Positions 12,109 to 37,753 of a DNA stretch of 41,808 bases are shown one piece after another. The notes beneath the pieces were generated by a model. The model worked only from the letters and a program-made list of their open reading frames with translations, was not told the origin of the DNA and made no database searches. The translations under genes were made by a program, and so were the position numbers. The number at the start of each line of letters is the position of its first letter. Position 1 is the first letter of the stretch. Origin of the DNA: Rhodocyclaceae bacterium (lineage in GTDB: Bacteria; Pseudomonadota; Gammaproteobacteria; Burkholderiales; Rhodocyclaceae); the NCBI GenBank assembly GCA_030682175.1, contig JAUXOM010000090.1:1-41808 (forward strand), written 5' to 3'.

Positions 12109-12652
12109 CGGTGTCTCGCTTGCGCCGCCTCAGCAGGGCGATGATTCCCGCGCCGGCGGTGAATACCACGGTGGTCTCGCCCAGCGTGTCATAGCCACGG
12201 AAGCTCGCCAGCACTGCCGTTACGACGTTGGGTATGTCGACCTCGTTCTGCAGGTAGCGCGGTGCGACGTGCTGATGAATCGGCGCCTGCGGGTCGGCGA
12301 AGTCGGGCAGACCCATGGCGCCGTAAATCAGCAATACGCCGGTCGTGGCGGAAAGGGCGAGCGGTAGCCAGGGCCGTTTTGCTGTCTTGGCTTCCTCGCT
12401 CTTGCACAGGTTGAGCGCGCCGAGCAGCAGCACGGTGGACACGCCGGCGCCGACGGCCGCCTCGGTCATCGCCACATCGACCGCATCGAGCGCGACCAGT
12501 ACCGTGGCCATGAGAAAGCTGTAGAGGCCGGAGAGCACGATCACGGCAAACAGGTTGCGCGTGCGGATCAGTGCCAGCACCAAGAGCACCATGAACACCA
12601 GCAGCACGTTGATGATTATGGTTTCGATGATGCCTCCGCCGGGCCGTCCCAA
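12098..12652 (-). CDS. MbhD/MbhE-like (DUF4040) antiporter-module protein
   Basis: The protein combines an N-terminal MbhD-type domain (DAVDVAMTEAAVGAGVSTVL is diagnostic) with a C-terminal MbhE-type segment (DIPNVVTAVLASFRGYDTLG, then ETTVVFTAGAGIIALL). In classic Mrp systems both domains form the C-terminus of MrpA; in Mbh complexes they are separate proteins. The gene order E-F-G-DE-B-C-D here matches the Mbh/Mbs antiporter arm. The start is uncertain. The expected start just before IETIII has ATC instead of ATG, directly after a repeat element. The only near candidate in frame is a TTG at 12652 inside that element, preceded by GGGGGGCGG. The open frame itself extends into mnhG. Confidence 0.82.
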   Translation of the reverse strand: MGRPGGGIIETIIINVLLVFMVLLVLALIRTRNLFAVIVLSGLYSFLMATVLVALDAVDVAMTEAAVGAGVSTVLLLGALNLCKSEEAKTAKRPWLPLALSATTGVLLIYGAMGLPDFADPQAPIHQHVAPRYLQNEVDIPNVVTAVLASFRGYDTLGETTVVFTAGAGIIALLRRRKRDTDAK

Positions 12653-12710
12653 GGAGGCATCCGCCCCCCCGTGGGGGGCAGCGAGCCGGGTTTGCGAGCG
12701 TGGGGGGCCA
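12629..12710 (+). repeat. Type A hairpin element, copy 1
   Basis: Stem GATGCCTCC (12629-12637) pairs perfectly with 12653-12661 around the loop GCCGGGCCGTCCCAA. A second C/G-run hairpin follows (CCCCCCC-GTG-GGGGG), then GCGAGCCGGGTTTGCG and GGGGGG. The element ends exactly at the TAA of mnhG (minus strand, 12711-12713). It covers the place where the MbhDE-like gene should have its ribosome binding site and start codon. It is antisense to the operon. Confidence 0.85.
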
Positions 12711-13031
12711 TTATTTGTTCTCCGCCGGGCCGTCAAGTAGCGGCTTGAGGCCGCGCAGCAATGCCGCGCGCGTCAGCGCATGGCTCGCCGTGGGACTGGC
12801 GAAGAAGATCAGCAGGCCGATCATCAGGAGCTTCACGGTGACCAGCGTGAAGCCTTCATGCAGCATGAGTCCGAGCAGGATCAGGCCCGCGCCCAGGGTT
12901 TCCGTCAGACTGGCGGCATGGACGCGGGTATAGAAGTCCGGCATGCGCAACAGCCCGATGCCGCCGACGATGCAGAAGAAACCGCCGCCGGCCAGGCAAA
13001 GTGCGCTCAGGATCTCGAACAGGGTCGTCAT
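12711..13031 (-). CDS. mnhG: Na+/H+ antiporter subunit G (MnhG/MrpG)
   Basis: A 106-residue, three-helix protein with the MrpG signature GGIGLLRMPDFYTRVHAAS between helices one and two, and LIGLLIFFASPTASHALTRAA near the C-terminus. It overlaps the end of mnhF by 4 bp (ATGA). MrpG is a small membrane subunit needed for complex assembly. It ends directly at a dispersed hairpin element, so read-through mRNA would carry that structure before the next gene. Confidence 0.94.
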   Translation of the reverse strand: MTTLFEILSALCLAGGGFFCIVGGIGLLRMPDFYTRVHAASLTETLGAGLILLGLMLHEGFTLVTVKLLMIGLLIFFASPTASHALTRAALLRGLKPLLDGPAENK

Positions 13032-13294
13032 GAGTCGCCCAAATTGCCCCGGTTGAAAAACTTCAGCACGGCGATGACGCCGATCACGTTGAGCAGCCCA
13101 TACACAATGGCCAGATCGAGGAACTCAGGACGGCCACCGAGAAATCCGAGCAGGGCGAGGATCAGCATGGCGCAGGTGCCGACGGTATTGGCCGCCTGCA
13201 GGCGGTCGAAAACGCTCGGACCGAGCGCCGCGCGCGCCAGCGCCAACAAGATAGTGACCAGCAGGGCGATGGCGGCGGCGGCGAGCATGCTCAA
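13028..13294 (-). CDS. mnhF: Na+/H+ antiporter subunit F (MnhF/MrpF)
   Basis: An 88-residue, three-helix protein with the MrpF pattern RAALGPSVFDRLQAANTVGT and YGLLNVIGVIAVLKFFNRG. It is coupled to both mnhE (stop/start overlap at 13291-13294) and mnhG. The length and the conserved GPSxxDRxxAxN motif make the call secure. In studied systems MrpF has also been linked to efflux of sodium and bile salts. Confidence 0.93.
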   Translation of the reverse strand: MSMLAAAAIALLVTILLALARAALGPSVFDRLQAANTVGTCAMLILALLGFLGGRPEFLDLAIVYGLLNVIGVIAVLKFFNRGNLGDS

Positions 13295-13767
13295 TGGGGC
13301 TCAAGCGCGCTGCAGCGGCGATCCATTTCACTGCCGGCGAGAGATGCGGCGCCCTCCCGGGTCAGCGCGTGCACGAGGAAGCGCCCCGCTTCGGCCTCGA
13401 CGGCGATGGTGCCGGGCGTTAGCGTGATCGAGTTGGCGTGGATCACCAGTCCGACATCCGTGCGCTGCGTCGGCGCGAATTCGACCAGCGTCGGCGAGAT
13501 CGGCAGGCTTGGCGAGAGGATGCGCCGGGTGACATCCCAGGCGGACTTGGCAATCTCCCAGACGAGCCAGGGCCAATAGGAAGTCAGCGCACGCCAAAGC
13601 ATTTCGACGGGGTGGCCCTCGTTGTCGATGAGTCCCAGGCGGCGTGCAATGAACACGACGGCGAGCGCACAGCCGAAGCCCGCGGCCAGCAGGAATGGCG
13701 TGAAAAATCCGGACAGCAGAATCCAGAAAATGTAAAGCGCTACCAGGGCGCTCAGGGAGCGGAACAT
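13291..13767 (-). CDS. mnhE: Na+/H+ antiporter subunit E (MnhE/MrpE)
   Basis: A 158-residue protein with two N-terminal helices and a soluble C-terminal domain. It shows LVWEIAKSAWDVTRRIL, then TDVGLVIHANSITLTPGTIAVE, the most conserved block in MrpE. It is the first gene of the tightly overlapping minus-strand antiporter operon. A gap of 156 bp separates it from the CBS protein gene upstream, so a promoter of its own is plausible just before it. Confidence 0.94.
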   Translation of the reverse strand: MFRSLSALVALYIFWILLSGFFTPFLLAAGFGCALAVVFIARRLGLIDNEGHPVEMLWRALTSYWPWLVWEIAKSAWDVTRRILSPSLPISPTLVEFAPTQRTDVGLVIHANSITLTPGTIAVEAEAGRFLVHALTREGAASLAGSEMDRRCSALEPH

Positions 13768-13780
13768 GGGGCGCGATTCT

Positions 13781-13808
13781 AATATAAGAAAAAGCTGATT
13801 AGCGAGAA
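13781..13808 (-). promoter_or_regulatory. Possible sigma-70 promoter of the mnhE operon
   Basis: On the minus strand TATATT (13786-13781) is preceded, 16 bp upstream, by TTCTCG (13808-13803), in an AT-rich island unusual for this window. It lies 13 bp before the mnhE ATG, so it would give a very short leader. The -35 match is poor (3 of 6). Confidence 0.28.
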
Positions 13809-13923
13809 TTATCTTCTGTCGCCGCGCTGAGCCCCTTGATGGGAGGGGGTGAGAGAGAAGGTGAGGTCATCGCGCGCAAGACTTTCATGTGCGTGGTGGT
13901 GTGTCGCCATGTCACCATGAAGG

Positions 13924-14547
13924 TTAGCGCCACAGGCTCAGCGGCGGATCATTGACCACCGCGCGCAGGATGTCGCTGCGCGAGACAAAGCCGATCAGCC
14001 GTCCGTTGTCGTCCACGATGGGTACGCCGTCGACATCATGGTCGAGCATGACGGTGGCGATGAGGCGGATGTCGGTTAGCGGCTCGGTAGCGACCACCGG
14101 CGTGGTCATGACATCGCGAACCTGCCGGCCGAGGGATTCGATGATCCGCTCAGCTTCGATATTGAGGGCGGTCAGCAGGTTGCGTTCGCTGACGACACCG
14201 ATGAGCCGTGCGGCATCGTCAAGCACTGGCGCCTGGTGGATGTGGTTTTCTTGCAGGGTCCGCCAGGCCTGCGCCACATCATCGCTGGCGGCGACGGTGA
14301 TCACCCGGCGCTGCATGACCTGCTCGGCACGATAGAGCGGGCCGCGCTCCTGATCGTTATGAATCATATCCTGGTAGGCGCGGATCGCTTCCGCGCCGGG
14401 CTGGCGCACCAGCCCGGCGAAGCTGGGCGCCTCACCCTCTTCGCCGATGGGTTGCACCGCGCGCAGGCTGTGGAGCGGGCGTACCCGAGTTAGATCTTCC
14501 AGCGAGCCGCTGAAGATCGGTCCGGAGATACCGTAAACGGAAAACAT
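13924..14547 (-). CDS. CBS-domain pair protein
   Basis: A 207-residue soluble protein with two CBS motifs in tandem. CBS1 spans roughly residues 76-130 (QVMQRRVITVAASD to LIGVVSERNLL). CBS2 spans roughly 142-200 (VRDVMTTPVVATEP to LIGFVSRSDIL). The first 70 residues are not a domain I recognise. CBS pairs commonly bind adenine nucleotides and gate transporters or enzymes. It starts 9 bp after the stop of the P-type ATPase and precedes the antiporter operon, so it may be an energy-state sensor for ion transport; that role is inference from position. Confidence 0.9.
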   Translation of the reverse strand: MFSVYGISGPIFSGSLEDLTRVRPLHSLRAVQPIGEEGEAPSFAGLVRQPGAEAIRAYQDMIHNDQERGPLYRAEQVMQRRVITVAASDDVAQAWRTLQENHIHQAPVLDDAARLIGVVSERNLLTALNIEAERIIESLGRQVRDVMTTPVVATEPLTDIRLIATVMLDHDVDGVPIVDDNGRLIGFVSRSDILRAVVNDPPLSLWR

Positions 14548-14556
14548 TTGTTGGCC

Positions 14557-17283
14557 TCAGGTTTTCCCGCGCCTGCCGGCGAGGAGGTGTAGCCCCAGTT
14601 TGCGTGCCTCTTCCAGAATCAGTGTACTCGACGCGATCGCCGTCGCCAGTAGCCAGTCGTTCAGGCTCAGATCGATGGTGTCGAATATCGCCTGCGCCGG
14701 CGCCCAATGGACGACGAGGATCTGTAGTCCGACCACTCCGGCAAGCGCCAGCCAGAGCTTGCCGTTGCTGAAGAACTGGCGATTGAAGGCGCTGCCATGT
14801 TCGTTGCGAGCGTTGAAGATGTTGAAAAACTGGAACAGCACAAAGGTGGTGAAGGCAAGGGTCACGGCATAGGCATGGCCACCCGTGCGTTCGCCCCAGG
14901 CATAGGCGGTGAGTGTACCGACCGCCATGGTCAGGCCGTAGAACATCAGGCGCGTCAGGCGGGAAGCGGTCAGGATGTTGGCGTCGGGTTGGCGCGGCTT
15001 CGAACGCATGATGCCGGGCCGGGCAGGTTCTACCCCCAGGGTCATGGCGGGGGGGCCGTCCATGATGATGTTGACCCAGAGGATCTGGATGGCGGTGAAT
15101 GGCGTGGGTATGCCGAACAGCGGCGCGCCGAGGACGGTGAGAATCGCCCCGATGTTGGTGGACAACTGGAAGCGCACGAACTTGACGATGTTGTCGTAGA
15201 TGGTGCGGCCTTCCTCGACCGCATGCACGATGCTGGCGAAGTTGTCGTCGGTGAGCACCAGGGTTGCCGCCTCCTTGGTGACCTCGGTGCCGGTGATGCC
15301 CATGGCCACGCCGATGTCGGCGGTTTTCAGGGCCGGCGCGTCATTGACGCCGTCACCGGTCATGGCGACGACATGGCCCTGCGCCTGCAGCGCCTTGACG
15401 ATGCGCAGCTTGTGCTCGGGCGAGACGCGCGCGAAGACGACCGTGCGCTCGACAAAATCGGCTAGCGCTTCTCCCGCGAGTCCCTCGATCTCGTGGCCCT
15501 CATGTACCTCATCATGCACCGCGCCGACCAGACCCAGATCGCGCGCGATGGCGGCGGCGGTGACCCGGTGGTCGCCGGTGATCATCTTCACGGCGATGCC
15601 GGCGGTGTGGCAGACGTGGATGGCCTCCCGCGCCTCGGGGCGCGGCGGGTCGATGATGCCGACCAGGCCGATCAGCGTCAGTTCGTTGGCCCAGATCATC
15701 AGGTCACCGGCCGGATCGAATTCCGCGGCAGGAATGTCGCGGCCGGCGAGGGCGAGCACGCGCAGGGCCTGCTCGGCAAACGCGGCGTTCTGTGCTGTGA
15801 ATTCGGCGCGGGCAGCATCGTCGAGCGCTTGTTCGCCCGCCGGCGCGAGCCAGCGGCTGGCGCGGGCCAGCAGCACGTCTGGCGCGCCCTTGATCCACAT
15901 GCGCACGACGGCGCCGTCATGGTGGAAGGTGGCCATGAACTTGTTGGCTGAATCGAAGGGGATTTCGGCAATGCGCGGATGGCGATCATGCAGTGCAGCG
16001 GCGATTTCCTCTGGCGTATCGGTGACATTCGCGCCCGCTGCGGCCTTCGCGGCAAGTGCCAGCAGCGCGCCTTCGGTCGGGTCGCCGATGAGTTCGCCGT
16101 CGTGAATGCGCGCATCGGCGCAGAGTACCGCCGGCTTGCGCAGGCTGTCCAGCGCCGGCGCGGGCTGGCCGTCCGCGGCGCTGATCTGGCCTTCCCCCCG
16201 GTAGCCTTCACCGCTCACGGTAAAGTGGCGGCCCATGTAATAGATGCGGCGGGCGGTCATCTGGTTCAAGGTCAGCGTGCCGGTCTTGTCGGAGCAGATT
16301 ACCGTCGTGCAGCCCAGCGTTTCCACCGCCGCCAGCTTTTTGACGATGGCGTGGCGCTTGGCCATGCGATGCATGCCCAGTGCCAGGGTGACGGTCACCA
16401 CGGCGGGCAGGCCTTCGGGAATCGCCGCCACCGCCAGCGCAATCGCGGTCATCGCCGTCTTCACCAGGTCGTCGCCGCGCAGGATGCCGATGACAAAGAT
16501 CAGGCCAACGACCACGCCCGCGATGGCCGCCAGACGCTTGCCGAGCCGGTCGAGCTGTACCTGCAAGGGGGTGGCCGATTCGGCAGCCTCGGCCAGCATA
16601 CCGGCGATCTTGCCCATCTCCGTGTGCATGCCGGTGGCGGTGACAATGGCCTCGATGCGGCCGCGCGTCACCACGGTATTCATGAAAACCATGCCACGCC
16701 GTTCCGCCAGCGCCGACTTTTCTTCGACCGCTTCCGGGTTCTTGGCCACCGCGTGCGACTCGCCGGTGAGCGCGGCCTCCGCCACCTCGCCGGCATGGGC
16801 GTGGAGCACGCGCGCGTCGGCCGGGATGCGGTCGCCCGCTTCGAGCAACAGAATATCGCCCGGCACCAGGTCGACCGCCGGGATCAGCGCGGCGTGGCCG
16901 TCTCGGCGCACGCGCGCGATCGGTGCCAGCATGTTCTTCAGCGCCGCGAGCGCGGCCTCGGCGCGATGCTCCTGAAAGAAGCCGAGCGTGGCGTTCAGCA
17001 GCACCACGATGGCGATGACGATGGAGTCCTTGAGCTCGCCCACCGCTCCGGCCAGCACCGCGGCACCGAGCAGCACGATGACCAGGAAGTTCTTGAACTG
17101 GTCGATAAATTTTAACCAGGCCGGGCGCGGCGGCTGGCTGGCAAGCTGGTTCGGGCCGTGGCTGGCGAGCCGGGTTTGCGCTGTGCTGGTGGTCAGCCCG
17201 GCGCTAACGTCAACATGCAATGCTGCCGCGACGGCTTCCGGCGGCACGGCGTGCCAGACGGGCGATTCCTGTAGTGTGGTCAT
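14557..17283 (-). CDS. Cation-transporting P-type ATPase, PMR1/SERCA-like (Ca2+/Mn2+ type)
   Basis: A 908-residue P2A-type ATPase. The N-terminal cation-ATPase domain ends in LASHGPNQLA. TGES lies in the actuator domain. The phosphorylation site DKTGT is at residues 332-336, and GDGVNDAP is near 645. M4 has AIPEGLPAVVTVTLALG and M6 has WVNIIMDGPPAMTLGVEP, matching the PMR1 group that pumps Ca2+ and Mn2+. Six C-terminal helices complete the fold. The substrate is inferred from those M4 and M6 residues. I chose the ATG at 17283 because MTTLQESPVWHAV is the usual kind of start for the family. KSALAERRG in the actuator domain is encoded across a repeat copy (16698-16721). It probably forms an operon with the CBS protein. 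Confidence 0.9.
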   Translation of the reverse strand: MTTLQESPVWHAVPPEAVAAALHVDVSAGLTTSTAQTRLASHGPNQLASQPPRPAWLKFIDQFKNFLVIVLLGAAVLAGAVGELKDSIVIAIVVLLNATLGFFQEHRAEAALAALKNMLAPIARVRRDGHAALIPAVDLVPGDILLLEAGDRIPADARVLHAHAGEVAEAALTGESHAVAKNPEAVEEKSALAERRGMVFMNTVVTRGRIEAIVTATGMHTEMGKIAGMLAEAAESATPLQVQLDRLGKRLAAIAGVVVGLIFVIGILRGDDLVKTAMTAIALAVAAIPEGLPAVVTVTLALGMHRMAKRHAIVKKLAAVETLGCTTVICSDKTGTLTLNQMTARRIYYMGRHFTVSGEGYRGEGQISAADGQPAPALDSLRKPAVLCADARIHDGELIGDPTEGALLALAAKAAAGANVTDTPEEIAAALHDRHPRIAEIPFDSANKFMATFHHDGAVVRMWIKGAPDVLLARASRWLAPAGEQALDDAARAEFTAQNAAFAEQALRVLALAGRDIPAAEFDPAGDLMIWANELTLIGLVGIIDPPRPEAREAIHVCHTAGIAVKMITGDHRVTAAAIARDLGLVGAVHDEVHEGHEIEGLAGEALADFVERTVVFARVSPEHKLRIVKALQAQGHVVAMTGDGVNDAPALKTADIGVAMGITGTEVTKEAATLVLTDDNFASIVHAVEEGRTIYDNIVKFVRFQLSTNIGAILTVLGAPLFGIPTPFTAIQILWVNIIMDGPPAMTLGVEPARPGIMRSKPRQPDANILTASRLTRLMFYGLTMAVGTLTAYAWGERTGGHAYAVTLAFTTFVLFQFFNIFNARNEHGSAFNRQFFSNGKLWLALAGVVGLQILVVHWAPAQAIFDTIDLSLNDWLLATAIASSTLILEEARKLGLHLLAGRRGKT
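16698..16721 (-). repeat. Dispersed 24-bp repeat, copy 4 (inside the P-type ATPase gene)
   Basis: One difference from copy 3. It encodes KSALAERR in the ATPase, a different frame from the other coding copies. Confidence 0.85.
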
Positions 17284-17423
17284 GATTTGGTTTTCTGTTA
17301 GAGCGTCCGCCCGGCGGCCGTGTCGCAGCATGCCCGTGAGGAACAGCTCGTCGCCGCCGCTACGGTGCCGCGCATGGCCAGGAGAGCGTGGGCGGAAAGG
17401 GTCATGTCGGGCGTCCAGTATCG

Positions 17424-18302
17424 CTAGTCGCTACGCCGTCCCGGGGTGCTGATCTGCGCTGCCATTTCCATTGGCGGAGCCAGCAGGGTCTTCAGTTCGC
17501 GGATCTCGGCACGCATGGCGCGCACCTCGCTGTGCAGGTCGGCCTCGATGTGCTCCTTGGCCTGCTCCACTGCCGCCACTGTCTCTGCCTGTTCTTTATC
17601 GTTGTAGCTTTGCATCGCGCTGACGATGATGGCGATGAACAGGTTGAGCATGGTGAAGGTCGCCACCAGGATGAAGGGCACAAAGAAGGCCCAGGCGTAG
17701 GGAAAGTTTTCCATCACCGGGCGGGCGATGCCCATCGACCAGCTTTCCAGTGTCATCACCTGGAACAGGGTGTAGAGCGAGCGGCCGATGTGGCCGAACC
17801 ACTCCGGGTGGTCGGCGGCGAACAGCTTGGTGGCGATCACCGCAAACACATAAAAAATGATCATCAGCACCATGGCGATGGAACCCAAGCCCGGAATTGC
17901 CGCGAGCAGCGCCCCCACCACCCGCCGCATGGAGGGCACCATGGTCAAGAGGCGCAGCACGCGCAAGACGCGCAGGGCGCGCAGCACGGCGAGCGGGCCG
18001 GTGGCCGGCATCAGCGCAATGGCAACGACGGCGAAGTCGAACACGCTCCATGGGTCGCGCCAGAAAGCCTGGCGGTGCACGTAGAGCCGCAGGGCGATTT
18101 CCACTACGAACACGCCAAGAATGAGCTGGTCGACCCCAAGAATCAATCCGCCCGCTGCCGCCATCGCGGCGGGCCAGGTCTCCATGCCGAGCAGTGCCGC
18201 ATTGAGCAGGATCAGGGCGATAATCGCGCCCTGCACGCGGGGATGTTCGATGAAGGCGCGCAGACGTTCACGCCCGACCGGCGCCACCGAGGTTTCAGTC
18301 AT
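17424..18302 (-). CDS. Bacterial voltage-gated sodium channel (BacNav/NaChBac family)
   Basis: A 292-residue single-domain, six-helix channel. S4 carries regularly spaced arginines at about residues 108, 111, 114 and 117 (VLRALRVLRVLRLL). The pore loop reads FQVMTLESWSMG, and TLESWSM (184-190) is the sodium-selective filter of the NavAb type. S6 has MLNLFIAIIVSAM with the conserved Asn (220). A C-terminal helix of about 45 residues (from AETVAAVEQAKEH) with heptad character should form the four-helix bundle that joins the tetramer. It starts 3 bp after htpX. Such channels admit Na+ on depolarisation; the adjacent antiporter operon could remove it again. Confidence 0.95.
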   Translation of the reverse strand: MTETSVAPVGRERLRAFIEHPRVQGAIIALILLNAALLGMETWPAAMAAAGGLILGVDQLILGVFVVEIALRLYVHRQAFWRDPWSVFDFAVVAIALMPATGPLAVLRALRVLRVLRLLTMVPSMRRVVGALLAAIPGLGSIAMVLMIIFYVFAVIATKLFAADHPEWFGHIGRSLYTLFQVMTLESWSMGIARPVMENFPYAWAFFVPFILVATFTMLNLFIAIIVSAMQSYNDKEQAETVAAVEQAKEHIEADLHSEVRAMRAEIRELKTLLAPPMEMAAQISTPGRRSD

Positions 18303-18305
18303 CGT

Positions 18306-21429: not shown

Positions 21430-21578
21430 GTCTCGCCGCCGGGCCGCCCCAAGGCGAGACGGCACGCGCCGCCAGGCGCAATCCGCGCCTATGTACGAAT
21501 GGGGGCACCCCGTAACAAGACGAGCGCAGCGAGTCAACAGTCACCCCTCCCGCGAGGGAGGGGCTGGGGGAGGGCGGA
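21430..21578 (+). repeat. Type B hairpin element, single copy
   Basis: Stem GTCTCGCC (21430-21437) pairs with 21453-21460 around the loop GCCGGGCCGCCCCAA. It is followed by GGCACGCGCCGCCAGGCGCA, a GGGGCACCCCGTAA segment, GAGCGCAGCGAG, and a terminal hairpin CCCCTCCC-GCGA-GGGAGGGG (21544-21563). It ends 2-3 bp from the livK stop codon (minus strand), where that last hairpin could act as its terminator. It shares its whole layout with the two copies at 28314-28656. Confidence 0.85.
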
Positions 21579-26135: not shown

Positions 26136-26897
26136 ATGGCGCTCCTCGAAGTCAGCAACCTCACCAAGATTTTTGGCGGCGTGCGTGCCGTGCAGAATGT
26201 CAGTTTTGCCGTTGATGCCGGGATCGTCTATTCGGTCATCGGTCCGAATGGCGCCGGCAAGACAACGCTGTTCAATCTCATCACCGGCATCTATGTTCCG
26301 AGCGAAGGGCAGATTCGCCTCGATGGGCGTGACATTGCCGGCGTTGCGCCCCATGAACTGGCGCGTTTCGGCATGGCGCGCACCTTCCAGAATCTTCAGG
26401 TATGCATGAACATGACGGCGCTCGAGAATGTCATGGTTGGCGCGCACCTCAGGCTTGATCGCAACCTCTTCAAGGGAGCGCTGCGCTTCCCCAGCATTGC
26501 CCGGCGCGATGCCGTGCTGCGCGAAGAGGCGGCTGAGTTGATGCGGCTGGTCGGATTGGAGGCTTTCATTGATGCCCACGCCGATGCCATGCCGTATGGC
26601 GCCCTGAAACGGCTGGAAATTGCCCGGGCGCTGGCCGCCCAGCCACGCGTCCTGTTTCTCGACGAACCTGCCGCCGGATTGAACCCGAAGGAAACCGGCG
26701 AGGTCGATATCCTGGTACGCAAGGTCGCCGACTCCGGGGTGACGGTGGTGCTGGTGGAACACGACATGAAAATGGTGATGAATATTTCCGACCAGATTCT
26801 GGTGCTCGACTATGGCCGCAAACTTGCCGAAGGCACGGCGGCCGAAGTGCGGCGCAATCCGGATGTCATCGCGGCCTATCTCGGCACCCATCAATGA
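26136..26897 (+). CDS. livG: ABC transporter ATPase LivG-type
   Basis: A 253-residue ATPase. It has Walker A GPNGAGKT near residue 38 and the LivG-specific GMARTFQNLQVCMNMTALENVMVG (Q-loop) split after the first helix. The signature motif is degenerate, reading PYGALKRLEIARAL instead of LSGGQ-type PYGxQRRLEIARAL; family LivG proteins normally show YGxQR. Walker B is VLFLDEPAAGLNP and the H-loop is LVEHDMKMVM. It starts directly behind the livM stop. It powers the transporter with the LivF-type subunit encoded next. A hairpin element begins right at its stop codon. Confidence 0.94.
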   Translation: MALLEVSNLTKIFGGVRAVQNVSFAVDAGIVYSVIGPNGAGKTTLFNLITGIYVPSEGQIRLDGRDIAGVAPHELARFGMARTFQNLQVCMNMTALENVMVGAHLRLDRNLFKGALRFPSIARRDAVLREEAAELMRLVGLEAFIDAHADAMPYGALKRLEIARALAAQPRVLFLDEPAAGLNPKETGEVDILVRKVADSGVTVVLVEHDMKMVMNISDQILVLDYGRKLAEGTAAEVRRNPDVIAAYLGTHQ

Positions 26898-26976
26898 TCC
26901 CACCCCGCAAACCTGCGCTTTGCTCGGTTCTCCCCTCAAGGAGCAGAAACTCTTGGGGCGGCCCGGCGAGTTTCTT
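26898..26976 (-). repeat. Type A hairpin element, copy 2
   Basis: In minus orientation the stem AGAAACTC (26945-26952, plus-strand reading) pairs with 26968-26975 around the loop, which reads GCCGGGCCGCCCCAA on the minus strand. A G/C-run hairpin, ACCGAGC and GGTTTGCGGGG follow. The element starts immediately behind the livG TGA and ends 14 bp before the start of the hemerythrin-LivF gene, filling the whole intercistronic gap. Confidence 0.85.
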
Positions 26977-26990: not shown

Positions 26991-28310
26991 ATGCGCAGCC
27001 TGACATTGCGAACGATTACCGATGAACACCGCAACCAGTGGCAACTGGGCCATGCGATCGCCGACCTGGCCGATGATATCGAGCATGGCGCACAGCCCGA
27101 CAAGCGTTTCTTCGAGGCGGTGTTCACCTATATCGACGAGTACTCCAACCACATGCACAATCCGCGCGAGGAGTTGCTCCTGTTCGGCTTGTTGCGCGAA
27201 CGCGACCCGACGCTGATTCCTCTCCTTGACGAGCTGTCTCTCGAGCACGTCGATGGCGCACCGCTGATTGCCCGGCTGCGCGCTGCCCTGGACGAGTCGC
27301 ATAGCGAAGCCGGCCGGCCGCTGTTTGTCGAGGCGCTGCGCGAACTGGTGGCGGAGATTCGCAGTCACATCGGCAAGGAGGAGGGCAAGCTGCTGCCGCG
27401 CGCCCACAAGGTGCTGACCGCCGAAGATATTCAGAAACTCGATGCGGTGCTGTCCGACGCGGATCATCCGCAGTTCGGCACCAAGCGCCAGGCGGAGTTT
27501 CGCGAGCTCTACCATCGCGTGGTCAATCTGGCCCCGGAATCGGTCGGACTGGGCGGATCGGCCGCCGGACAACTGATGCACGACGCCGCGGCTCCGGTGC
27601 GCCAATCAGTGCTTGCCGTGCGCGCCGTCGATAGTTGCTATGGACGCATCCGGGCCATCAAGGAAATCAGCCTGGAGATTCGCAGCGGCGAACTGGTGGC
27701 CCTGGTCGGCGCCAACGGCGCGGGCAAGACGACCCTGCTCAGGGCCATCTCCGGCGTGCAGCCCATCGTCGGCGGAACCATCATCTTCGACGGCGAAGAC
27801 ATCACGCAGCTCAGTCCCGACCGGCGCGTCAGCCTGGGCATCTGCCAGGTGCCCGAGGGACGCCAGGTGTTCGGGCCCCTGTCGGTCGAGGATAACCTCC
27901 GCCTGGGCGCCATTACGCAATCCAAAGGCCGACTCACGGTCGGGCTGGAGCGGGTTTATGAGACTTTCCCGGTGCTCAAGGAAAAACGTCACCTGCCCGC
28001 CGGCACGCTCTCCGGTGGCCAGCAGCAGATGCTGTCGATCGGCCGGGCACTCATGGGACGGCCGCGCTTGCTGTTGCTCGACGAGCCGTCGATGGGGCTG
28101 GCGCCGCTGCTGGTCGAGGAAGTCTTCAACGTCGTGCGCACCCTTAAAGCGCAGGGCATGACCATTTTCCTGGTCGAACAGAATGCCTATGCCGCCCTGG
28201 AAATCGCCGACCGCGGCTATGTCATGGAAACCGGCTCGATCACCCTGACCGGCACGGGGCAGGAACTGCTCGACAACGAGCAGGTGAAGGCGGCCTATCT
28301 AGGCATATAA
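26991..28310 (+). CDS. Hemerythrin (HHE) domain fused to a LivF-type ABC ATPase
   Basis: A 439-residue two-domain protein. Residues 1-175 are a hemerythrin/HHE cation-binding domain with all expected ligands: H13 (DEHRNQ), H56 and E60 (HNPRE), H86 (LEH), H126 and E130 (HIGKE). The four-helix spacing is normal. A linker of about 30 residues follows. Residues 207-439 are a complete LivF ATPase: Walker A GANGAGKT 240-247, signature LSGGQQQ 340-346, Walker B LLLLDEPS 360-367, and LVEQN as switch. LivF normally has no N-terminal extension (about 235 residues). The HHE part is in frame with no internal start that matches livF better. A di-iron O2, NO or redox-responsive control of uptake is an inference. 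Confidence in both domains is high. Confidence 0.93.
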   Translation: MRSLTLRTITDEHRNQWQLGHAIADLADDIEHGAQPDKRFFEAVFTYIDEYSNHMHNPREELLLFGLLRERDPTLIPLLDELSLEHVDGAPLIARLRAALDESHSEAGRPLFVEALRELVAEIRSHIGKEEGKLLPRAHKVLTAEDIQKLDAVLSDADHPQFGTKRQAEFRELYHRVVNLAPESVGLGGSAAGQLMHDAAAPVRQSVLAVRAVDSCYGRIRAIKEISLEIRSGELVALVGANGAGKTTLLRAISGVQPIVGGTIIFDGEDITQLSPDRRVSLGICQVPEGRQVFGPLSVEDNLRLGAITQSKGRLTVGLERVYETFPVLKEKRHLPAGTLSGGQQQMLSIGRALMGRPRLLLLDEPSMGLAPLLVEEVFNVVRTLKAQGMTIFLVEQNAYAALEIADRGYVMETGSITLTGTGQELLDNEQVKAAYLGI

Positions 28311-28313
28311 ACT

Positions 28314-28455
28314 CCCGCCCCCCTTCGCCCCCCTCGCGGGGGGTTCTTTAGTGCTCGCTACGCTCGCCTATCACGGGGCACTCCGTTGGTAAGATTGCAC
28401 GGGTTGCGCCTGGCGGCGCGTGCCGCTTTCCCTTGGGGCGGCCCTGCGGGAAAGC
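28314..28455 (-). repeat. Type B hairpin element, left arm of a 343-bp palindrome
   Basis: This is the minus-strand copy. The stem GCTTTCCC (28425-28432) pairs with 28448-28455 around a loop that on the minus strand reads GCAGGGCCGCCCCAA (one base off consensus). The outer end is the CCCCCC-TCGC-GGGGGG hairpin, 3 bp behind the livF-fusion stop. The first 34 bp (28314-28347) are the exact reverse complement of 28623-28656. With the right arm it occupies nearly all of the 356-bp gap 28311-28666, which has no gene. Confidence 0.9.
28328..28349 (+). terminator. Intrinsic terminator of the liv operon, supplied by the repeat
   Basis: CCCCCC (28328-28333), loop TCGC, GGGGGG (28338-28343), then TTCTTT. 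It lies 18 bp behind the stop of the hemerythrin-LivF gene and forms the outer end of the repeat element. Confidence 0.6.
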
Positions 28456-28467
28456 TGCTGTTAAATT

Positions 28468-28493
28468 GCGCCGTCCCGCCAGCGCCGACTTTT
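28468..28493 (-). repeat. Dispersed 24-bp repeat, copy 6 (centre of the 343-bp palindrome)
   Basis: One difference over 24 bp. It occupies the unpaired centre between the two type B hairpin elements. Confidence 0.9.
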
Positions 28494-28514
28494 CCAGCGT
28501 AACGAACCACAGCA

Positions 28515-28656
28515 GCGTTTGCGCCGGGCCGCCCCAAGCAAACGCGGCACGCGCCGAAGGCGCAACCCGCTCAGCAGTAAATACGACAGCTCCCCGTAAT
28601 ATCCGCGCGCAGCGCGCTAACGAGAACCCCCCGCGAGGGGGGCGAAGGGGGGCGGG
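28515..28656 (+). repeat. Type B hairpin element, right arm of a 343-bp palindrome
   Basis: Stem GCGTTTGC (28515-28522) pairs with 28538-28545 around the loop GCCGGGCCGCCCCAA. GGCACGCGCCGAAGGCGCAA and the same trailing modules follow as in the other type B copies. The outer end (CCCCCC-GCGA-GGGGGG, 28627-28642) lies 24 bp from the phoH stop and could terminate phoH on the minus strand. Its inner half matches the left arm closely, except in the stem, where both strands differ together. Confidence 0.9.
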
Positions 28657-28666
28657 CGTATTTGTT

Positions 28667-31542: not shown

Positions 31543-31612
31543 GGAGGGCTCGAAAATTCGGGGTTGAGATGACCATTACTGGCCTGCGGTGCAGGATCCT
31601 GGCCCGGTCAGC

Positions 31613-32367: not shown

Positions 32368-32417
32368 GGCGGTGGCGTGTGGTGAGAACGTAATTTCTGA
32401 TCGTTGGGTTGCCGCGG

Positions 32418-32447
32418 TTCTGGCTCAGGCTGGGTTAAGATTATAAC
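32418..32447 (+). promoter_or_regulatory. Possible promoter of the alaA-hom-thrC operon
   Basis: A TATAAC hexamer (32442-32447) sits in an AT-rich island 35 bp before the alaA ATG. The best upstream box at 18 bp is TTCTGG, a weak -35. The region between 32368 and 32482 holds nothing else I can recognise. Confidence 0.3.
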
Positions 32448-32482
32448 CTTTCACTTTTATCGCCTTCGTGCCCCAAACCACC

Positions 32483-33709
32483 ATGCAACCCGTCCATAAA
32501 TCCGCCAAACTCGCCAGTGTGTGCTACGACATCCGTGGGCCGGTGCTGGCGCGCGCGCGCCAGATGGAAGAGGAGGGGCACCGTGTCATCAAGTTGAACA
32601 TCGGTAATCCGGCGGCGTTCGGTTTCGAGGCGCCGGAGGAAATCGTCGTCGATGTGATCCGCAACATCCGCGATGCCTCCGGCTACTCTGACTCCAAGGG
32701 CTTGTTCGCCGCACGCAAGGCGGTGATGCACTATTGCCAGCAGAAGCAGATTGCCGATGTCACCATCGATGACATCTATCTCGGCAACGGTGTTTCCGAA
32801 CTGATCGTCATGTCCATGCAGGGGTTGCTGGACAATGGCGACGAGGTATTGGTGCCGGCTCCCGACTATCCGCTATGGACGGCTGCCGTCACCCTGTCCG
32901 GGGGCACGCCGCGGCACTATCTCTGCGACGAGGGCGCCGGTTGGCTGCCCGACATTGCCGACATGCGCGCCAAGATCACCCCCCAGACCCGCGCCATCGT
33001 CGTCATCAACCCCAACAATCCCACCGGCGCCTTGTATCCGGATGACCTGCTGAAAGAAATCGTCGAGCTGGCGCGCCAGCATCAGTTGATCATCTTCGCC
33101 GACGAAATCTACGACAAGGTGCTCTACGACGGCCGCACGCACACCTCGCTGGCCAGCCTGGCCGACGACGTGCTGTTCATCACCTTCAACGGCCTGTCGA
33201 AGAACTATCGGGCCTGTGGTTTTCGCGCCGGCTGGATGATCGTTTCCGGCGAAAAACGCCATGCGCAGGATTACATCGAGGGGCTGGGCATCCTCGCCTC
33301 GATGCGCCTGTGCTCCAATGTGCCGGGTCAGCACGCGATCCAGACCGCGCTGGGCGGCTATCAGAGCATCGATGAACTGGTGGCGCCGCAGGGTCGTTTG
33401 TCCAAGCAGCGCGACGTGGCCTGGGAACTGCTCTCGGCGATCCCCGGAGTTTCATGTGTCAAGCCACAGGCGGCGCTTTACTGCTTTCCGCGCCTCGACC
33501 CGAAAATTTACCCGATCAGCGACGACCAGCAGTTCATTCTTGAACTGGTAGAAACGGAAAAGGTGCTGCTGGTGCAGGGGCGCGGCTTCAACTGGCCGAC
33601 CCCCGATCACTTTCGCGTCGTGTTCCTGCCCAACGTCGATGATCTCACCGAAGCCATCGGCCGCATCGCGCGTTTCCTTGATCAATATCGCAAGCGGCAC
33701 GGCACCTGA
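32483..33709 (+). CDS. alaA: Alanine/glutamate-pyruvate aminotransferase AlaA type
   Basis: A 408-residue fold-type I PLP enzyme. N-terminal SAKLASVCYDIRGPVL matches the start of AlaA proteins, which is why I chose the ATG at 32483 over the GTG at 32468. NPNNPTGALY, FADEIYDKVLYD and the PLP lysine K240 in FNGLSKNYRACGFR are intact. It makes alanine from pyruvate and glutamate. In many betaproteobacteria this gene precedes hom and thrC, as here; hom follows after 28 bp. No good Shine-Dalgarno is visible. Confidence 0.92.
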   Translation: MQPVHKSAKLASVCYDIRGPVLARARQMEEEGHRVIKLNIGNPAAFGFEAPEEIVVDVIRNIRDASGYSDSKGLFAARKAVMHYCQQKQIADVTIDDIYLGNGVSELIVMSMQGLLDNGDEVLVPAPDYPLWTAAVTLSGGTPRHYLCDEGAGWLPDIADMRAKITPQTRAIVVINPNNPTGALYPDDLLKEIVELARQHQLIIFADEIYDKVLYDGRTHTSLASLADDVLFITFNGLSKNYRACGFRAGWMIVSGEKRHAQDYIEGLGILASMRLCSNVPGQHAIQTALGGYQSIDELVAPQGRLSKQRDVAWELLSAIPGVSCVKPQAALYCFPRLDPKIYPISDDQQFILELVETEKVLLVQGRGFNWPTPDHFRVVFLPNVDDLTEAIGRIARFLDQYRKRHGT

Positions 33710-33737
33710 TCAATCTTTCTCACTTTTCCGAGTATTT

Positions 33738-35048
33738 ATGAAACCAATCAATGTTGGATTGCTGGGCATCGGCACGGTCGGTGGCGGCACATTTACAGTT
33801 CTTTCCCGCAATGAAGCGGAAATCACCCGGCGCGCCGGCCGACCGATTCGCGTCACGCAAGTTGCCGACAAGAATCTTGAGCTGGCCAGGCAAGTTACCG
33901 GGGGCAAGGTGGCGGTGACGGATGACGCCTTTGCCGTGGTGAGCAACCCCGAGATCGACATCGTTGTTGAACTGATCGGCGGCTGCGGCATAGCCAAGGA
34001 ACTGGTGCTGAAGGCCATCGAGAACGGCAAGCATGTTGTTACCGCCAACAAGGCTTTACTGGCGATGCATGGCAATGAAATCTTCGCCGCCGCCCAGAAA
34101 TTGGGGGTGATGGTCGCCTTCGAGGCGGCCGTGGCCGGTGGCATCCCGATCATCAAGGCGCTGCGCGAGGGCCTCACCGCCAACCGCATCCAGTGGATCG
34201 CCGGCATCATCAACGGCACCACCAACTTCATCCTTTCCGAGATGCGCGACAAGGGCCTGACCTTCGATGTCGTGCTCAAGGAGGCGCAGCGCCTGGGCTA
34301 TGCCGAGGCTGACCCGACCTTCGACGTCGAAGGCGTCGATGCCGCGCACAAGCTGACCATCATGTCGGCGATTGCCTTCGGCATCCCGATGCAATTCGAC
34401 AAGGCGCACATCGAGGGCATCAGCAAGCTTGAAGCCGCCGACATCAAGTACGCCGAGCAATTGGGCTACCGCATCAAGCTGCTGGGCATCACCAGGCGCA
34501 CGCCTGACGGCGTGGAGTTGCGCGTCCATCCGACCCTGATTCCTGCCCGGCGCCTGATCGCCAATGTCGAGGGAGCGATGAACGCCGTGCTGGTGCAGGG
34601 CGACGCGGTCGGCGCCACGCTTTACTACGGCAAGGGCGCCGGCGCCGAGCCGACCGCCAGCGCGGTGATCGCCGATCTCGTCGATGTCACCCGCATGCAA
34701 ACCGCCGATCCGGAACACCGCGTGCCGCATCTGGCTTTTCAGCCCGACCAGATGGACGACCTCAAGGTATTGCCGATTGGCGAGGTGCGGACCGGCTACT
34801 ACTTGCGCATGCGGGTCGAGGACAAGCCGGGGGTGCTTGCCGACATCACGCGCATCCTTGCCGATCAGCAAATTTCCATCGACGCCATGATCCAGCGCGA
34901 ACCCGCCGAGGACGAGACGCAGACCGAAATCATCATGCTGACCCACATCGTGCGCGAAAAGCAGGTCGATGCGGCGATGCGCTTGATCGAGGCCTTGCCG
35001 GTCGTGACCGGGAAAATCGTGCGTTTGCGCCTCGAAGAGTTGAGCTGA
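33738..35048 (+). CDS. hom: Homoserine dehydrogenase
   Basis: A 436-residue monofunctional enzyme. The NAD(P) loop GLLGIGTVGGGT is at residues 7-18. VTANKALLA and AGIINGTTNFILSEM follow, with the catalytic domain up to about residue 340. A C-terminal ACT domain (GYYLRMRVEDKPGVLADITR onward) gives feedback control, usually by threonine. It reduces aspartate semialdehyde to homoserine. The start ATG is chosen by the family N-terminus. It lies between alaA and an unexpected membrane-protein gene that separates it from thrC. Confidence 0.97.
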   Translation: MKPINVGLLGIGTVGGGTFTVLSRNEAEITRRAGRPIRVTQVADKNLELARQVTGGKVAVTDDAFAVVSNPEIDIVVELIGGCGIAKELVLKAIENGKHVVTANKALLAMHGNEIFAAAQKLGVMVAFEAAVAGGIPIIKALREGLTANRIQWIAGIINGTTNFILSEMRDKGLTFDVVLKEAQRLGYAEADPTFDVEGVDAAHKLTIMSAIAFGIPMQFDKAHIEGISKLEAADIKYAEQLGYRIKLLGITRRTPDGVELRVHPTLIPARRLIANVEGAMNAVLVQGDAVGATLYYGKGAGAEPTASAVIADLVDVTRMQTADPEHRVPHLAFQPDQMDDLKVLPIGEVRTGYYLRMRVEDKPGVLADITRILADQQISIDAMIQREPAEDETQTEIIMLTHIVREKQVDAAMRLIEALPVVTGKIVRLRLEELS

Positions 35049-35060
35049 CAGCTCCAGCAG

Positions 35061-36215
35061 ATGCTGGTCTATCTCGGCATCTGCGCCGTTCTGGCCTTTC
35101 TGGCGGCGCTGTTCGCGGCGTTACTCGCCGTACCGCCAGCGCCGACTATTCATATCGCCTTTGCCGCCGGCGCAATGCCACTGGTATTCGGCGCCATCAT
35201 TCACTTCGTGCCGGTCCTGACCCGGACCGCCACGCCCGGGCGCCCGCTGCTGCTCCTGCCGCTCCTCGTCCAGCTTGCTGGCATTGCCACTCCGCTCGCC
35301 CTGGCCGGAATCCTGCCTGGTTGGAGCCTGCATGCCGCGGCGAGCGGGGTTGCGCTGGCAGCCCTGCTTCTGCTGGTGTGGATCACGCGTCGCCTGCGCG
35401 TCACGCTGGGCTCCCCGCATCCTGGTGCGCGCTGGTACGGGGCCGCGCTGCTCTGTCTGTTTTTTGCCGTCAGCCTGGTGCCGGTCTGGCTGGCACGGCC
35501 CGAACTGGGCGCGGTCTTGCGCCTGTTTCACCTGCATCTCAATACCGTGGGATTCATCGGCCTGGCGGCCCTGGGCACGCTGCCGGTGCTGGTGCCGACG
35601 GTGCTGGGACGCCCCGATCCGGCTGCCGCCGCCCGCTTGCGCCGTGAGCTGCCGATTGCCGCAGGCGGGGTGGTGCTGGTCGCGGCAGGAGCGGCCGGCG
35701 GTAACCCGGTCGGTGCCTGGCTGTCCCTCGGCGGTGCCGCGCTGCTGCTCTGGGTGGTCGGTAACAATCTGCTGGCCTGGCGGCGTACCTTTGGCTTCGC
35801 CGCGATAATCAACGCCGGAGCGGCGGCGTCATTGCTGGCGGCCACCACCGGCCTGGCGCTGCTGCTGCTGCTGGGCATGGCGCATGGTCTGGGGCTAATG
35901 TCAGCGCGCCCGGCGATTGCCAGTTTCGTGGCGGCCTTCCTGTTGCCGCTCGTCACTGGCGCACTAAGCCACTTGTTACCGGTCTGGCGCCATCCGGGCG
36001 CTAATTTGCCGCAGCGCCGCATCCTGCATGCACGTCTGGCCTGGGGCGGTCGCTGGCGTGCCGTGCTGTTTCTGGCGGGCGGGCTCTGGCTCGCGTTTGA
36101 CGATGCGCGTGGGTGGCTGCCCGTGGCAATCGGCATGCTGCTGTTTGCCCTGCAGCTGCTGCGCGGATGGGTGGACAGGCCAGAACCCAGCGACGATAAT
36201 TCCCGTCCGCATTAG
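35061..36215 (+). CDS. Polytopic, histidine-bearing membrane protein (NnrS/heme-copper-oxidase-I-like)
   Basis: A 384-residue protein with about twelve helices. Conserved-looking histidines fall within helices or at their ends: GAIIHFVPVLTRT, LFHLHLNTVGFIGLAALG, GMAHGLGLMSARP and ALSHLLPVWRH. This pattern resembles NnrS-like and cytochrome-oxidase-subunit-I-like heme proteins. I cannot name the function; heme or metal binding in the membrane is the best inference. It sits 12 bp after hom and 23 bp before thrC, so it is part of the operon. AVPPAPT in its second helix region is encoded by a repeat copy (35126-35147). Confidence 0.8.
   Translation: MLVYLGICAVLAFLAALFAALLAVPPAPTIHIAFAAGAMPLVFGAIIHFVPVLTRTATPGRPLLLLPLLVQLAGIATPLALAGILPGWSLHAAASGVALAALLLLVWITRRLRVTLGSPHPGARWYGAALLCLFFAVSLVPVWLARPELGAVLRLFHLHLNTVGFIGLAALGTLPVLVPTVLGRPDPAAAARLRRELPIAAGGVVLVAAGAAGGNPVGAWLSLGGAALLLWVVGNNLLAWRRTFGFAAIINAGAAASLLAATTGLALLLLLGMAHGLGLMSARPAIASFVAAFLLPLVTGALSHLLPVWRHPGANLPQRRILHARLAWGGRWRAVLFLAGGLWLAFDDARGWLPVAIGMLLFALQLLRGWVDRPEPSDDNSRPH
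35126..35147 (-). repeat. Dispersed 24-bp repeat, copy 8 (inside the NnrS-like gene)
   Basis: Matches over 22 bp with no difference; the flanking A-tract is broken by a T. It encodes AVPPAPT, the same frame as in mnhD. Confidence 0.85.
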
Positions 36216-36238
36216 TCACTCGATAGCCAATACATCCC

Positions 36239-37753
36239 ATGAAATACATTTCCACGCGCGGTGGTGCCGCACCGCAGAACTTCAGCGACATTCTCCTCGG
36301 CGGCCTGGCATCCGACGGCGGCCTTTATCTGCCCGAAACCTATCCGCAGGTCAGCGCTGCAGAACTCGCCGCATGGCGCGAACTGCCTTATGCCGGGCTG
36401 GCGCTGCGCATCCTCGAAAAGTTCATCGACGACATTCCTGGCGACACGCTAAAGGATCTGGTTGAACGCGCCTACACGGCCCATACCTTCCGCCATACAC
36501 GCCCCGGTTGCGATGCTGCTGACATCACGCCATTGACTACGCTCGAGCCGGGATTGCAAGAAACACGCCGGGCCGCCCCAAGTGTTTCTTTGCCCCCGAG
36601 GGGGGAAGCCGAGCGCGGCGAGGTTTGCGGGGGGGGGCTTTATCTGCTCGAACTGTCGAATGGCCCGACGCTGGCCTTCAAGGACATGGCGATGCAACTG
36701 CTCGGCAATCTGTTCGAGCATGTGCTATCTGTGCGCGGTGAAACCATCAATATCCTTGGTGCAACCTCGGGCGATACCGGCTCGGCGGCCGAGTACGCCA
36801 TGCGCGGCAAGCACGGTGTGCGCGTCTTCATGCTGTCGCCGCATGGCCTGATGTCGGCTTTCCAGCGCGCCCAGATGTATTCGCTGCAGGAACCGAATAT
36901 CTTCAACATCGCCATCGAGGGCATGTTCGACGACTGTCAGGACATCGTCAAGGCGGTTTCCAACGACGCCGCCTTCAAGGCGCAATACAAGATCGGTGCG
37001 GTCAACTCGATCAACTGGGCGCGCGTGCTGGCCCAGATCGTTTATTACTTCAAGGGCTATTTTGCGGCAACGCGCAGCAACGATGAACGGGTGTCATTTG
37101 CCGTGCCGTCGGGAAATTTCGGCAACATCTGCGCCGGCCACATCGCGCACCAGATGGGTTTGCCGATTCACCGGCTGGTCCTGGCCACCAACGAGAACGA
37201 CGTGCTCGACGAATTCTTCCGCACCGGCGTCTACCGGCCGCGTGGCGCGAGCGATACCTGGGTGACATCGAGTCCATCGATGGATATCTCCAAGGCGTCG
37301 AATTTCGAGCGCTTCGTCTTCGACCTGGTCGGCCGCGATGCGGCGGTGGTGCGCGAACTGTGGGCCAAGGTGGATACGGGCGGCAGTTTCGATCTCAATG
37401 ACACACCTTATATCTCCCGGCTTGCCGACTTCCGTTTCGTCTCCGGCAAGAGTACCCATGCGGATCGTCTGGCCACGATCCGCGCTGTCTGGCAGCAGCA
37501 TCGGTTGATGATCGATACGCACACGGCCGATGCGCTCAAGGTGGCGCGCGAACAGCGTGAAGCGGGCATACCGATGATCGTGCTGGAAACGGCCCAGCCG
37601 GTGAAGTTCGCCGAGACCATCCAGGAGGCGCTGGGTTGCGATCCGCAACGGCCCGCGGACTTCGATGGCATCGAAAAACTCCCGCAGCAGGTCGCGGTGA
37701 TGAAGGCGGATGTGCAGGCGGTCAAGGACTTCATCGTCAGCCATTGCACATGA
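36239..37753 (+). CDS. thrC: Threonine synthase with an in-frame repeat insertion
   Basis: A 504-residue PLP enzyme of the long (fold II, E. coli-like) ThrC group. It starts MKYISTRGGAAPQNFSDILL. SNGPTLAFKDMAMQLLGNLF contains the PLP lysine K148. ILGATSGDTGSAAEYAM and VPSGNFGNICAG follow. It makes threonine from phosphohomoserine. Residues 107-132 (ETRRAAPSVSLPPRGEAERG core) have no place in the family, where the conserved GLYLLELSNGPT directly follows the preceding strand. They are encoded by a type A hairpin element. The insert lies about 15 residues before the active-site lysine but in a surface-loop position. The gene is otherwise intact, so the enzyme is probably functional. Confidence 0.95.
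   Translation: MKYISTRGGAAPQNFSDILLGGLASDGGLYLPETYPQVSAAELAAWRELPYAGLALRILEKFIDDIPGDTLKDLVERAYTAHTFRHTRPGCDAADITPLTTLEPGLQETRRAAPSVSLPPRGEAERGEVCGGGLYLLELSNGPTLAFKDMAMQLLGNLFEHVLSVRGETINILGATSGDTGSAAEYAMRGKHGVRVFMLSPHGLMSAFQRAQMYSLQEPNIFNIAIEGMFDDCQDIVKAVSNDAAFKAQYKIGAVNSINWARVLAQIVYYFKGYFAATRSNDERVSFAVPSGNFGNICAGHIAHQMGLPIHRLVLATNENDVLDEFFRTGVYRPRGASDTWVTSSPSMDISKASNFERFVFDLVGRDAAVVRELWAKVDTGGSFDLNDTPYISRLADFRFVSGKSTHADRLATIRAVWQQHRLMIDTHTADALKVAREQREAGIPMIVLETAQPVKFAETIQEALGCDPQRPADFDGIEKLPQQVAVMKADVQAVKDFIVSHCT
36558..36637 (+). repeat. Type A hairpin element inside thrC, copy 3
   Basis: Stem AAGAAACAC (36558-36566) pairs with 36582-36590 around the loop GCCGGGCCGCCCCAA. CCCCCGAGGGGGG and GCCGAGCGCGGCGAGG follow, then TTTGCG and a G run. 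At about 78-80 bp the insertion keeps the reading frame of thrC and contains no stop on that frame. Confidence 0.9.

Follow-up and report, generated by a model that had tools for sequence, protein, structure and literature searches.

A near-fixed 15-nt loop on co-varying stems heads a family of short, probably mobile repeats in Betaproteobacteria

The nearest published relative of the elements described here is the Beta-proteobacterial repeat element (BRE), a short GC-rich chromosomal repeat of about 90 bp known from Alcaligenaceae, Comamonadaceae and Azoarcus (PMC3110155). In Bordetella its full-length units are 75–91 bp; they are intergenic, sometimes in tandem, and some lie in coding sequence. 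BRE has a mean G+C of about 69% (63.7–78.9%) and at most 29 copies per genome. One copy stands beside lexA in three Bordetella genomes, and conservation of context is only moderate (PMC3110155). Two other kinds of short repeat are relevant. The repetitive extragenic palindromic sequences (REPs) are units of 20–40 bp with mostly short loops and a GTAG or CGTC tag; alternative complementary residues in the stem, G·T pairs and head-to-head dimers are described for them, and one family has loops of 9–15 bp (PMC3733652). The Rickettsia palindromic elements are inserted in frame in unrelated genes (PMC10969869). Here we examine six hairpins sharing a 15-nt loop in a stretch of 41,808 nucleotides (the window) that is positions 1 to 41,808 of contig JAUXOM010000090.1 from a Rhodocyclaceae bacterium (assembly GCA_030682175.1; source genome, G000). 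We consider it probable that these hairpins are the heads of a short (about 80–150 bp), non-autonomous and modular family of mobile elements of Betaproteobacteria, mobilised in trans.

The loop, GCCGGGCCGCCCCAA, is found at six places in the window when up to two mismatches are allowed, compared to a mean of 0.52 in dinucleotide shuffles, none of 100 of which reached six. The loops are at 12638–12652, 21438–21452, 26953–26967 (minus strand), 28433–28447 (minus strand), 28523–28537 and 36567–36581. These are all of the sites in a preliminary description made from the letters of the sequence, and there are no others. The one-base variants it reported in two copies were also recovered (GCCGGGCCGTCCCAA at 12638 and GCAGGGCCGCCCCAA at 28433), as was the perfect stem of 8–9 bp that it listed for each loop. 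Closure by at least 8 bp occurs for just 9 of the 41,748 fifteen-base intervals of the window, the six loops among them. In RNA folding every one of the six elements forms its stem, though the outer part of the one at 36567 contains a one-base bulge, and the minimum-energy forms include a small GGG/CCC helix within the loop. The G+C of the elements is 60–79%. Rfam gave no match in the window at its gathering score. Four matches to microRNA models appear between 28300 and 28680 at an E-value threshold, the best at 49 bits (E 1e-7), where the gathering score is 268; they are read as chance matches to GC-rich inverted repeats.

Stretches of the source genome and of a sister species (G009) that were analysed in detail yielded 241 distinct copies. 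These comprise at least four kinds of element, roughly 80–150 bp and interspersed, with the loop in all and a paired stem in most. Sorted by tail, there are 120 of type A, 55 of type D, 32 of type B, 25 of type C and 9 unassigned. The types were set by regular expressions, and the boundaries are not perfectly sharp: 4 of the 60 rows of our type A alignment (A1) resemble type C or D, and type B stems occur in at least four copies classed as type D. Type A has 18 different perfect 8-bp stems, three of which account for 56 of the 120 copies, and several stem classes are separated by one or two pairs. The earlier statement that every stem is different is therefore correct for the six in the window and incorrect genome-wide, where stem classes recur, and the opposite picture of stems drawn from a few families is partly right.

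The stems change in a paired fashion. In A1, 8 of the 9 pairs of the closing helix have changed on both sides, and 94.3% of its cells are paired. For the specified structure as a whole, 93.9% of cells are paired, falling to 46.8% or less when the partner is shifted by 1–3 columns, and there are 133 double-changed cells versus 37 in shuffles, with none of 500 shuffles reaching 133. RNAalifold recovers the stem unaided, with 7 of 11 pairs compensated. When arms are swapped between copies, a stem of at least 6 bp is formed in 6.1%, against the 68.0% observed among the 241 copies. The pairing also has a strand preference. In distinct stems, the loop strand gives 42 G·U pairs versus 19 for the other strand (p = 0.004); a second count gives 36 versus 20 in the G000 and G009 stretches and 13 versus 4 in named genomes (p = 0.044 and 0.049). 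From this excess we take the loop strand to be the folded strand, with caution over the shared ancestry of the copies. Selection for structure, the first of two readings offered in the preliminary description, is supported by double changes beyond all 500 shuffles and by the one-strand G·U excess.

The family is abundant in a few genomes and patchy among close relatives. The source genome holds 283 loops at no more than one mismatch, versus 6 for the reversed pattern, and 123 of the 283 fall within the 749,860 bases analysed in detail. Exact copies range from 0 to 185 among 19 genomes of the genus, with four that are rich: G000 (185), G009 (175), G015 (103) and G008 (78). Of 274 genomes sampled across the class, six gave a match. 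Besides G000, two belong to a different family within the order (42 and 2 copies), and three hold one copy each, which is no more than is seen with the reversed control, present in eight genomes of that sample. A scan of a genome collection found at least 119 stretches with the loop; most of the 80 titled matches listed are from Betaproteobacteria, and Achromobacter, Rhodoferax, Delftia and Acidovorax are among them. A contiguous stem of at least 5 pairs closes 84 of 123 loops in the G000 stretches and 89 of 118 in those of G009, and a part of the remainder have interrupted stems. Among the matches listed from named genomes, at least 4 contiguous bp adjoin the loop in 70 of the 132 exact copies. 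Spread by phage or plasmid is not favoured by a single 128-base query, which returned eight plasmid records and no phage.

For elements of the window itself, close species can be compared for filled and empty sites. The type B element at 26894..26976 (minus strand; loop 26953–26967, arms 26968–26975 and 26945–26952), flanked by two ABC-transporter ATPase-like genes, is absent from G009 and G010 and present in G015, and neither arm is in the empty sites. The type A element at 21430..21574 (plus strand; arms 21430–21437 and 21453–21460, loop 21438–21452, further hairpins in the tail, right end approximate) is missing from G010. It lies between dnaB and a convergent substrate-binding-protein-like gene, the latter below NCBIfam cut-offs. 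The presence and absence of copies between close species, the paired change of their stems and the rearrangement of orthologs are observed directly; mobility is what we infer from them.

If the elements are mobile, the following course of events would account for their anatomy. At the type A, B and C junctions that were compared, what is gained or lost takes in both arms, the 15-nt loop and the tail with its further hairpins. A trans-acting factor would recognise the loop strand, folded as RNA or as single-stranded DNA. With a nearly constant loop and no demand on the stem beyond pairing, the stems would drift by paired changes. Copies would later recombine and so move whole stems between sites, a process suggested by its outcomes. 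They would persist where they are least harmful, which is to say at gene ends, at operon junctions and at frame-preserving sites within genes; at operon junctions one arm would come to adjoin the start codon, often in a Shine-Dalgarno-like form.

Only 39 of the 241 copies are in predicted genes, though 89% of the analysed G000 sequence is coding. Genes were called with a home-made codon scorer. Fifteen of the 39 span an ortholog in one frame with 27–50 extra residues (L207+7038 is a doubtful case, at 55.7% identity with a gap of 50), 6 span an ortholog with a gap of no more than 10, and 18 have no spanning match in the analysed sequence. The window has one of the in-frame cases. Its thrC gene for threonine synthase (36239..37753, plus strand; TIGR00260, 233.9 bits against a cut-off of 167.1) contains an 84-bp type B element in frame at 36558..36641 (plus strand; arms 36558–36566 and 36582–36590, loop 36567–36581). 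The product is 504 aa versus 476 aa in G009, with the 28 extra residues directly ahead of the LLELSNGPTLAFKDM segment; the G009 site is empty, and neither arm is there. The in-frame inserts occupy 14 genes. Thirteen were scanned against NCBIfam, and one of these thirteen (in L212) received no name. Named hosts are thrC, recC, biotin carboxylase, priA, uvrA, lnt, murC, hrpA, fmt, pgi and trhA, and a partial parC-like gene below the NCBIfam cut-off is a further one. The priA gene of the source genome (L208:198-1862) has two in-frame elements, one type B and one type C. Frame-breaking inserts would escape in-gene calling, so the in-frame result reflects survival, not targeting. A separate observation on coding potential is that at L049:5905-6039, and also in L073, L087 and L097, the loop is preceded by ATGAGC and could be translated from there (ATGAGCACCGCCGGGCCGCCCCAAGG..); at L049:5905-6039 there are three such units, spaced 60 bases.

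Intergenic copies have preferred positions and orientations. Type D copies sit in operon junctions in the antisense direction, the gene on the head side being on the opposite strand in 34 of 36 and that on the tail side in 33 of 36. In type A, the tail faces the 3′ end of an opposite-strand gene in 99 of 110. The head-side bias is weak in B (15/20) and C (17/22). The distance from loop centre to start codon, which is a prediction of our gene caller, is exactly 13 bases in 13 D copies and exactly 16 in 8 C copies, and read on the strand of the gene, the start-proximal arm is often GGAGG or GGCGG just ahead of ATG, resembling a Shine-Dalgarno sequence. The window example is the type D element at 12629..12709 (plus strand; arms 12629–12637 and 12653–12661, loop 12638–12652), at the junction of two minus-strand cation/proton antiporter genes and overlapping the predicted start of the second. 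Its tail hairpin, CCCCCCC..GGGGGG, extends to about 12709, a right end inferred from the family pattern. Directly past it, at 12718–12734, is a partial head, TTCTCCGCCGGGCCGTC.

Such positions are what would be expected of a host cis-regulatory hairpin, selected for gene control through Shine-Dalgarno sequestration or 3′ end stability and not for mobility. The fixed distances, the start-proximal motifs and the strong orientation bias of A and D all fit that explanation. It is less easily reconciled with the G·U excess being on the loop strand, which in A and D is mostly antisense to the flanking genes, or with sites that are patchy among close species, and copies within coding sequence have the same loop and paired stem. 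We think it unlikely that gene control is the reason for the hairpins.

The preliminary description's second reading was that insertion writes the reverse complement of the target flank. In the form considered here, the host would contribute one arm, and the arm carried by the element would be, or would come to be, the reverse complement of that host arm. Filled and empty ortholog pairs, identified by flank matching, bear on this point. A first test with wide windows (36 pairs, 34 copies) found the 5′ arm in 8 empty sites and the 3′ arm in 8, with shuffled rates of 0.16 and 0.13. A wider-window test of 87 pairs shows a modest excess of the 5′ arm (19/87, shuffled rate 0.139, p = 0.028), mainly due to type D, which supplies 12 of the 19 from its 25 pairs, and no excess of the 3′ arm (14/87, shuffled rate 0.148, p = 0.41). 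The junction test was confined to the 48 bases at the junction in 71 distinct copies with an empty ortholog, with the copies inside a second repeat, R2 (see below), counted apart. The 5′ arm is in the empty site for 2 of 31 in A, 0 of 17 in B, 0 of 6 in C, 2 of 11 in other D copies and 3 of 6 in the R2 sub-family. The 3′ arm is in 3 of 71 against 2.8 expected, all three in type A (3/31). In A, B and C, neither arm is significantly above chance at empty junctions (type A has 2 and 3 of 31 where 0.8 and 1.3 are expected); therefore, both arms arrive or leave with the element. For the most part this refutes reverse-complement copying as a rule.

The R2 sub-family is a real exception. R2 (GCCGTCCCGCCAGCGCCGACTTT) is a second high-copy repeat, with 142 copies at no more than 3 mismatches in 749,860 bases of G000 and 238 in 1,357,040 bases of G009; there is one in the window at about 28475–28500. 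A sub-family of loop elements with the stem AAAGTCGGC/GCCGAC lies within R2, and its 5′ arm is in the empty junction in the 3 of 6 copies noted above versus 0.9 expected, and the 3′ arm in none. At L202+1147, the G009 allele is bare R2, and the filled site has GCGCCGAC then ATT or TTT on its two sides. At L202-8940 (copy -11045), the G009 and G015 alleles consist of bare R2 or a near variant, and GCGCCGACTTT flanks the filled site on both sides. Both sites show R2 alone when empty and, when filled, GCGCCGACTTT or a single-base variant of it at either side; one arm here is supplied by the host R2. The R2-associated composite unit is itself repeated in G009, G010 and G015, so a single founding insertion followed by spread could account for the sub-family.

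Copying of the target as the general source of the arms also draws some support from type D. Its 5′ arm frequency outside R2 exceeds expectation (2/11 versus 0.3, p = 0.03), one of the two being a partly deleted copy, and the flank repeats of a few other copies match their own arm. As tail identity rises, type D copies differ at fewer of the 6 stem positions, on average about 4 at first and about 2 later, with a plateau near 2 between 85% and 95%. Pairs near 95% still differ at a mean of 2.1 of 6 positions; stem similarity follows tail similarity only partly. Set against this are the chance-level arms of A, B and C and the copies whose arms are missing from the empty alleles (type C in L226, type D in L228 and in G009 L181). 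Nor did exact matching and local alignment show a strong, general direct repeat linking the arm with the far flank (D 6 versus 2.6 expected, A 3 versus 2.1, C 3 versus 1.3, B 1 versus 0.4). We judge it decidedly unlikely that the arms are generally written from the target. A general target-site duplication was sought by the same two kinds of matching and was not found, outside of the R2 sub-family. A related proposal is that the stem is a target-recognition device, with the element-borne arm pairing to a complementary host flank such as a Shine-Dalgarno sequence plus start codon, or R2. We give it very little credence; were it right, this would be a programmable mobile hairpin whose target shifts as its arm changes.

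Copies appear to have exchanged stems by recombination, judging by the sequences of orthologs. In G009 the ortholog of the 21438 hairpin is a chimera whose two mismatched arms belong to different stem classes. The window also has two head-to-head type A copies, at 28310..28455 (minus strand; variant loop GCAGGG.. at 28433–28447, arms 28448–28455 and 28425–28432) and 28515..28655 (plus strand; arms 28515–28522 and 28538–28545, loop 28523–28537), both with approximate tail ends, separated by a spacer at 28456..28514 that holds the R2 copy. In G009, the spacer is inverted together with both stems (L181:8693-9042 versus window 28309–28660), and the two copies may serve recombination as a pair of inverted repeats. 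At further orthologous sites the difference lies in the stem, again between the same two classes, or in the tail modules. Such swaps, the chimera and the inversion are the outcomes from which recombination between copies is suggested. The tail modules differ, for example, in the orthologous D copies of L218 and L260, where only one of the species has a small additional hairpin (TCACCGCTTCGGGTGA or CCCCCTCCGGGGG). At some intergenic sites (L095:73-320, L225:7532-7875 and L222:14864-15163), a different repeat, CACCACGGAG.. or ..GGAATGACGGG, replaces the type A element, as if these were shared landing places.

Could these be ordinary REP elements moved by a REP-associated tyrosine (RAYT, Y1) transposase? 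REP stems also vary by complementary changes (PMC3733652), there are three Y1 genes in G000 and one in G009, and of the 120 type A copies, 81 have GYAG ahead of the inner stem (GTAG in 14). However, the tag was not seen by eye in B, C or D copies. Among eight Y1 loci (taken with 1.5 kb of flanking sequence as far as the contig extends), only L242 has the loop at no more than one mismatch, about 1.4 kb from the Y1 match, whereas four hold R2, which in L245 is on both sides of the gene. No Y1 match was found in G008 or G015 (85% and 83% complete) despite their 78 and 103 copies. It is quite improbable that the family is of this ordinary kind. Finally, template switching that perfects imperfect palindromes, as proposed for perfect inverted repeats elsewhere (PMC6649704), could make arms complementary without selection and fits stem classes one or two pairs apart, but it would predict neither the G·U strand bias nor a near-invariant loop, and changes on one side alone survive (of 960 type A stem cells, 58 are not Watson-Crick), so we consider it very unlikely.

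We return to the reading of the hairpins as heads of a mobile family, against which several results weigh. Folding energy is unusual only at 21438 (z −3.4), the other window elements having z of 0.2 to −1.5. The G·U and covariation counts are non-independent since copies share ancestry. Among the matches listed, about half of the exact loops in named genomes are without a contiguous stem at the loop. Tail-side orientation is unbiased in B (11/20) and C (13/22), and hints that the 5′ arm was there beforehand persist in type D and the R2 sub-family. Transposition itself was not observed, and the empty sites could in part be precise losses. As to the mobiliser, the preliminary description suggested looking for a linked transposase or reverse transcriptase; in a phylogenetic profile neither Y1 transposases nor reverse transcriptases (RVT_1) follow copy number.

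Compared with known systems, the loop elements are like REPs in high copy number, complementary stem variation and head-to-head pairs, and unlike them in having one 15-mer loop common to several element kinds and a REP-like tag in type A only. Miniature inverted-repeat transposable elements (MITEs) and the ERIC, BOX and NEMIS repeats are likewise short and non-autonomous with structured transcripts, though the loop elements showed no regular target duplication. The loop sequence itself was not found in the portions of the literature searched, and what was seen there on BRE, REP and Rickettsia elements does not describe a 15-nt loop across kinds, strand-specific covariation, empty sites or the named in-frame inserts. 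The likeness to BRE drawn here is one of description. The distribution is similar: mostly in Betaproteobacteria among the matches listed, and intergenic, with the minority in predicted genes given above. Tandem units of the loop element in named genomes (n = 17) have a median of 82 bp and a range of 60–117, with 12 of 17 inside the 75–91 bp of BRE, and a mean G+C of 75.9% (64.3–84.5%), somewhat above that of BRE. No exact loop copy is near lexA in two Achromobacter genomes, unlike BRE in Bordetella. The parts of the BRE account cited here contain no loop and stem anatomy, covariation or reading-frame analysis (PMC3110155); if the two are identical, the present results provide an anatomy for a repeat whose function was left open in 2011. 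With its near-fixed loop and freely co-varying stems, this large family amounts to a natural mutagenesis experiment on the requirements of a hairpin-recognising mobility system. The Rickettsia palindromic elements are about 150 bp, belong to another host and, in the material cited, are not said to have a fixed loop with co-varying stems (PMC10969869). They have in common with the loop element, in 15 of its 39 in-gene copies, insertion in frame in unrelated protein genes. The loop elements are thus an apparent betaproteobacterial parallel to them: apparently mobile DNA carried in frame in core enzymes such as thrC, uvrA, murC, fmt and pgi.

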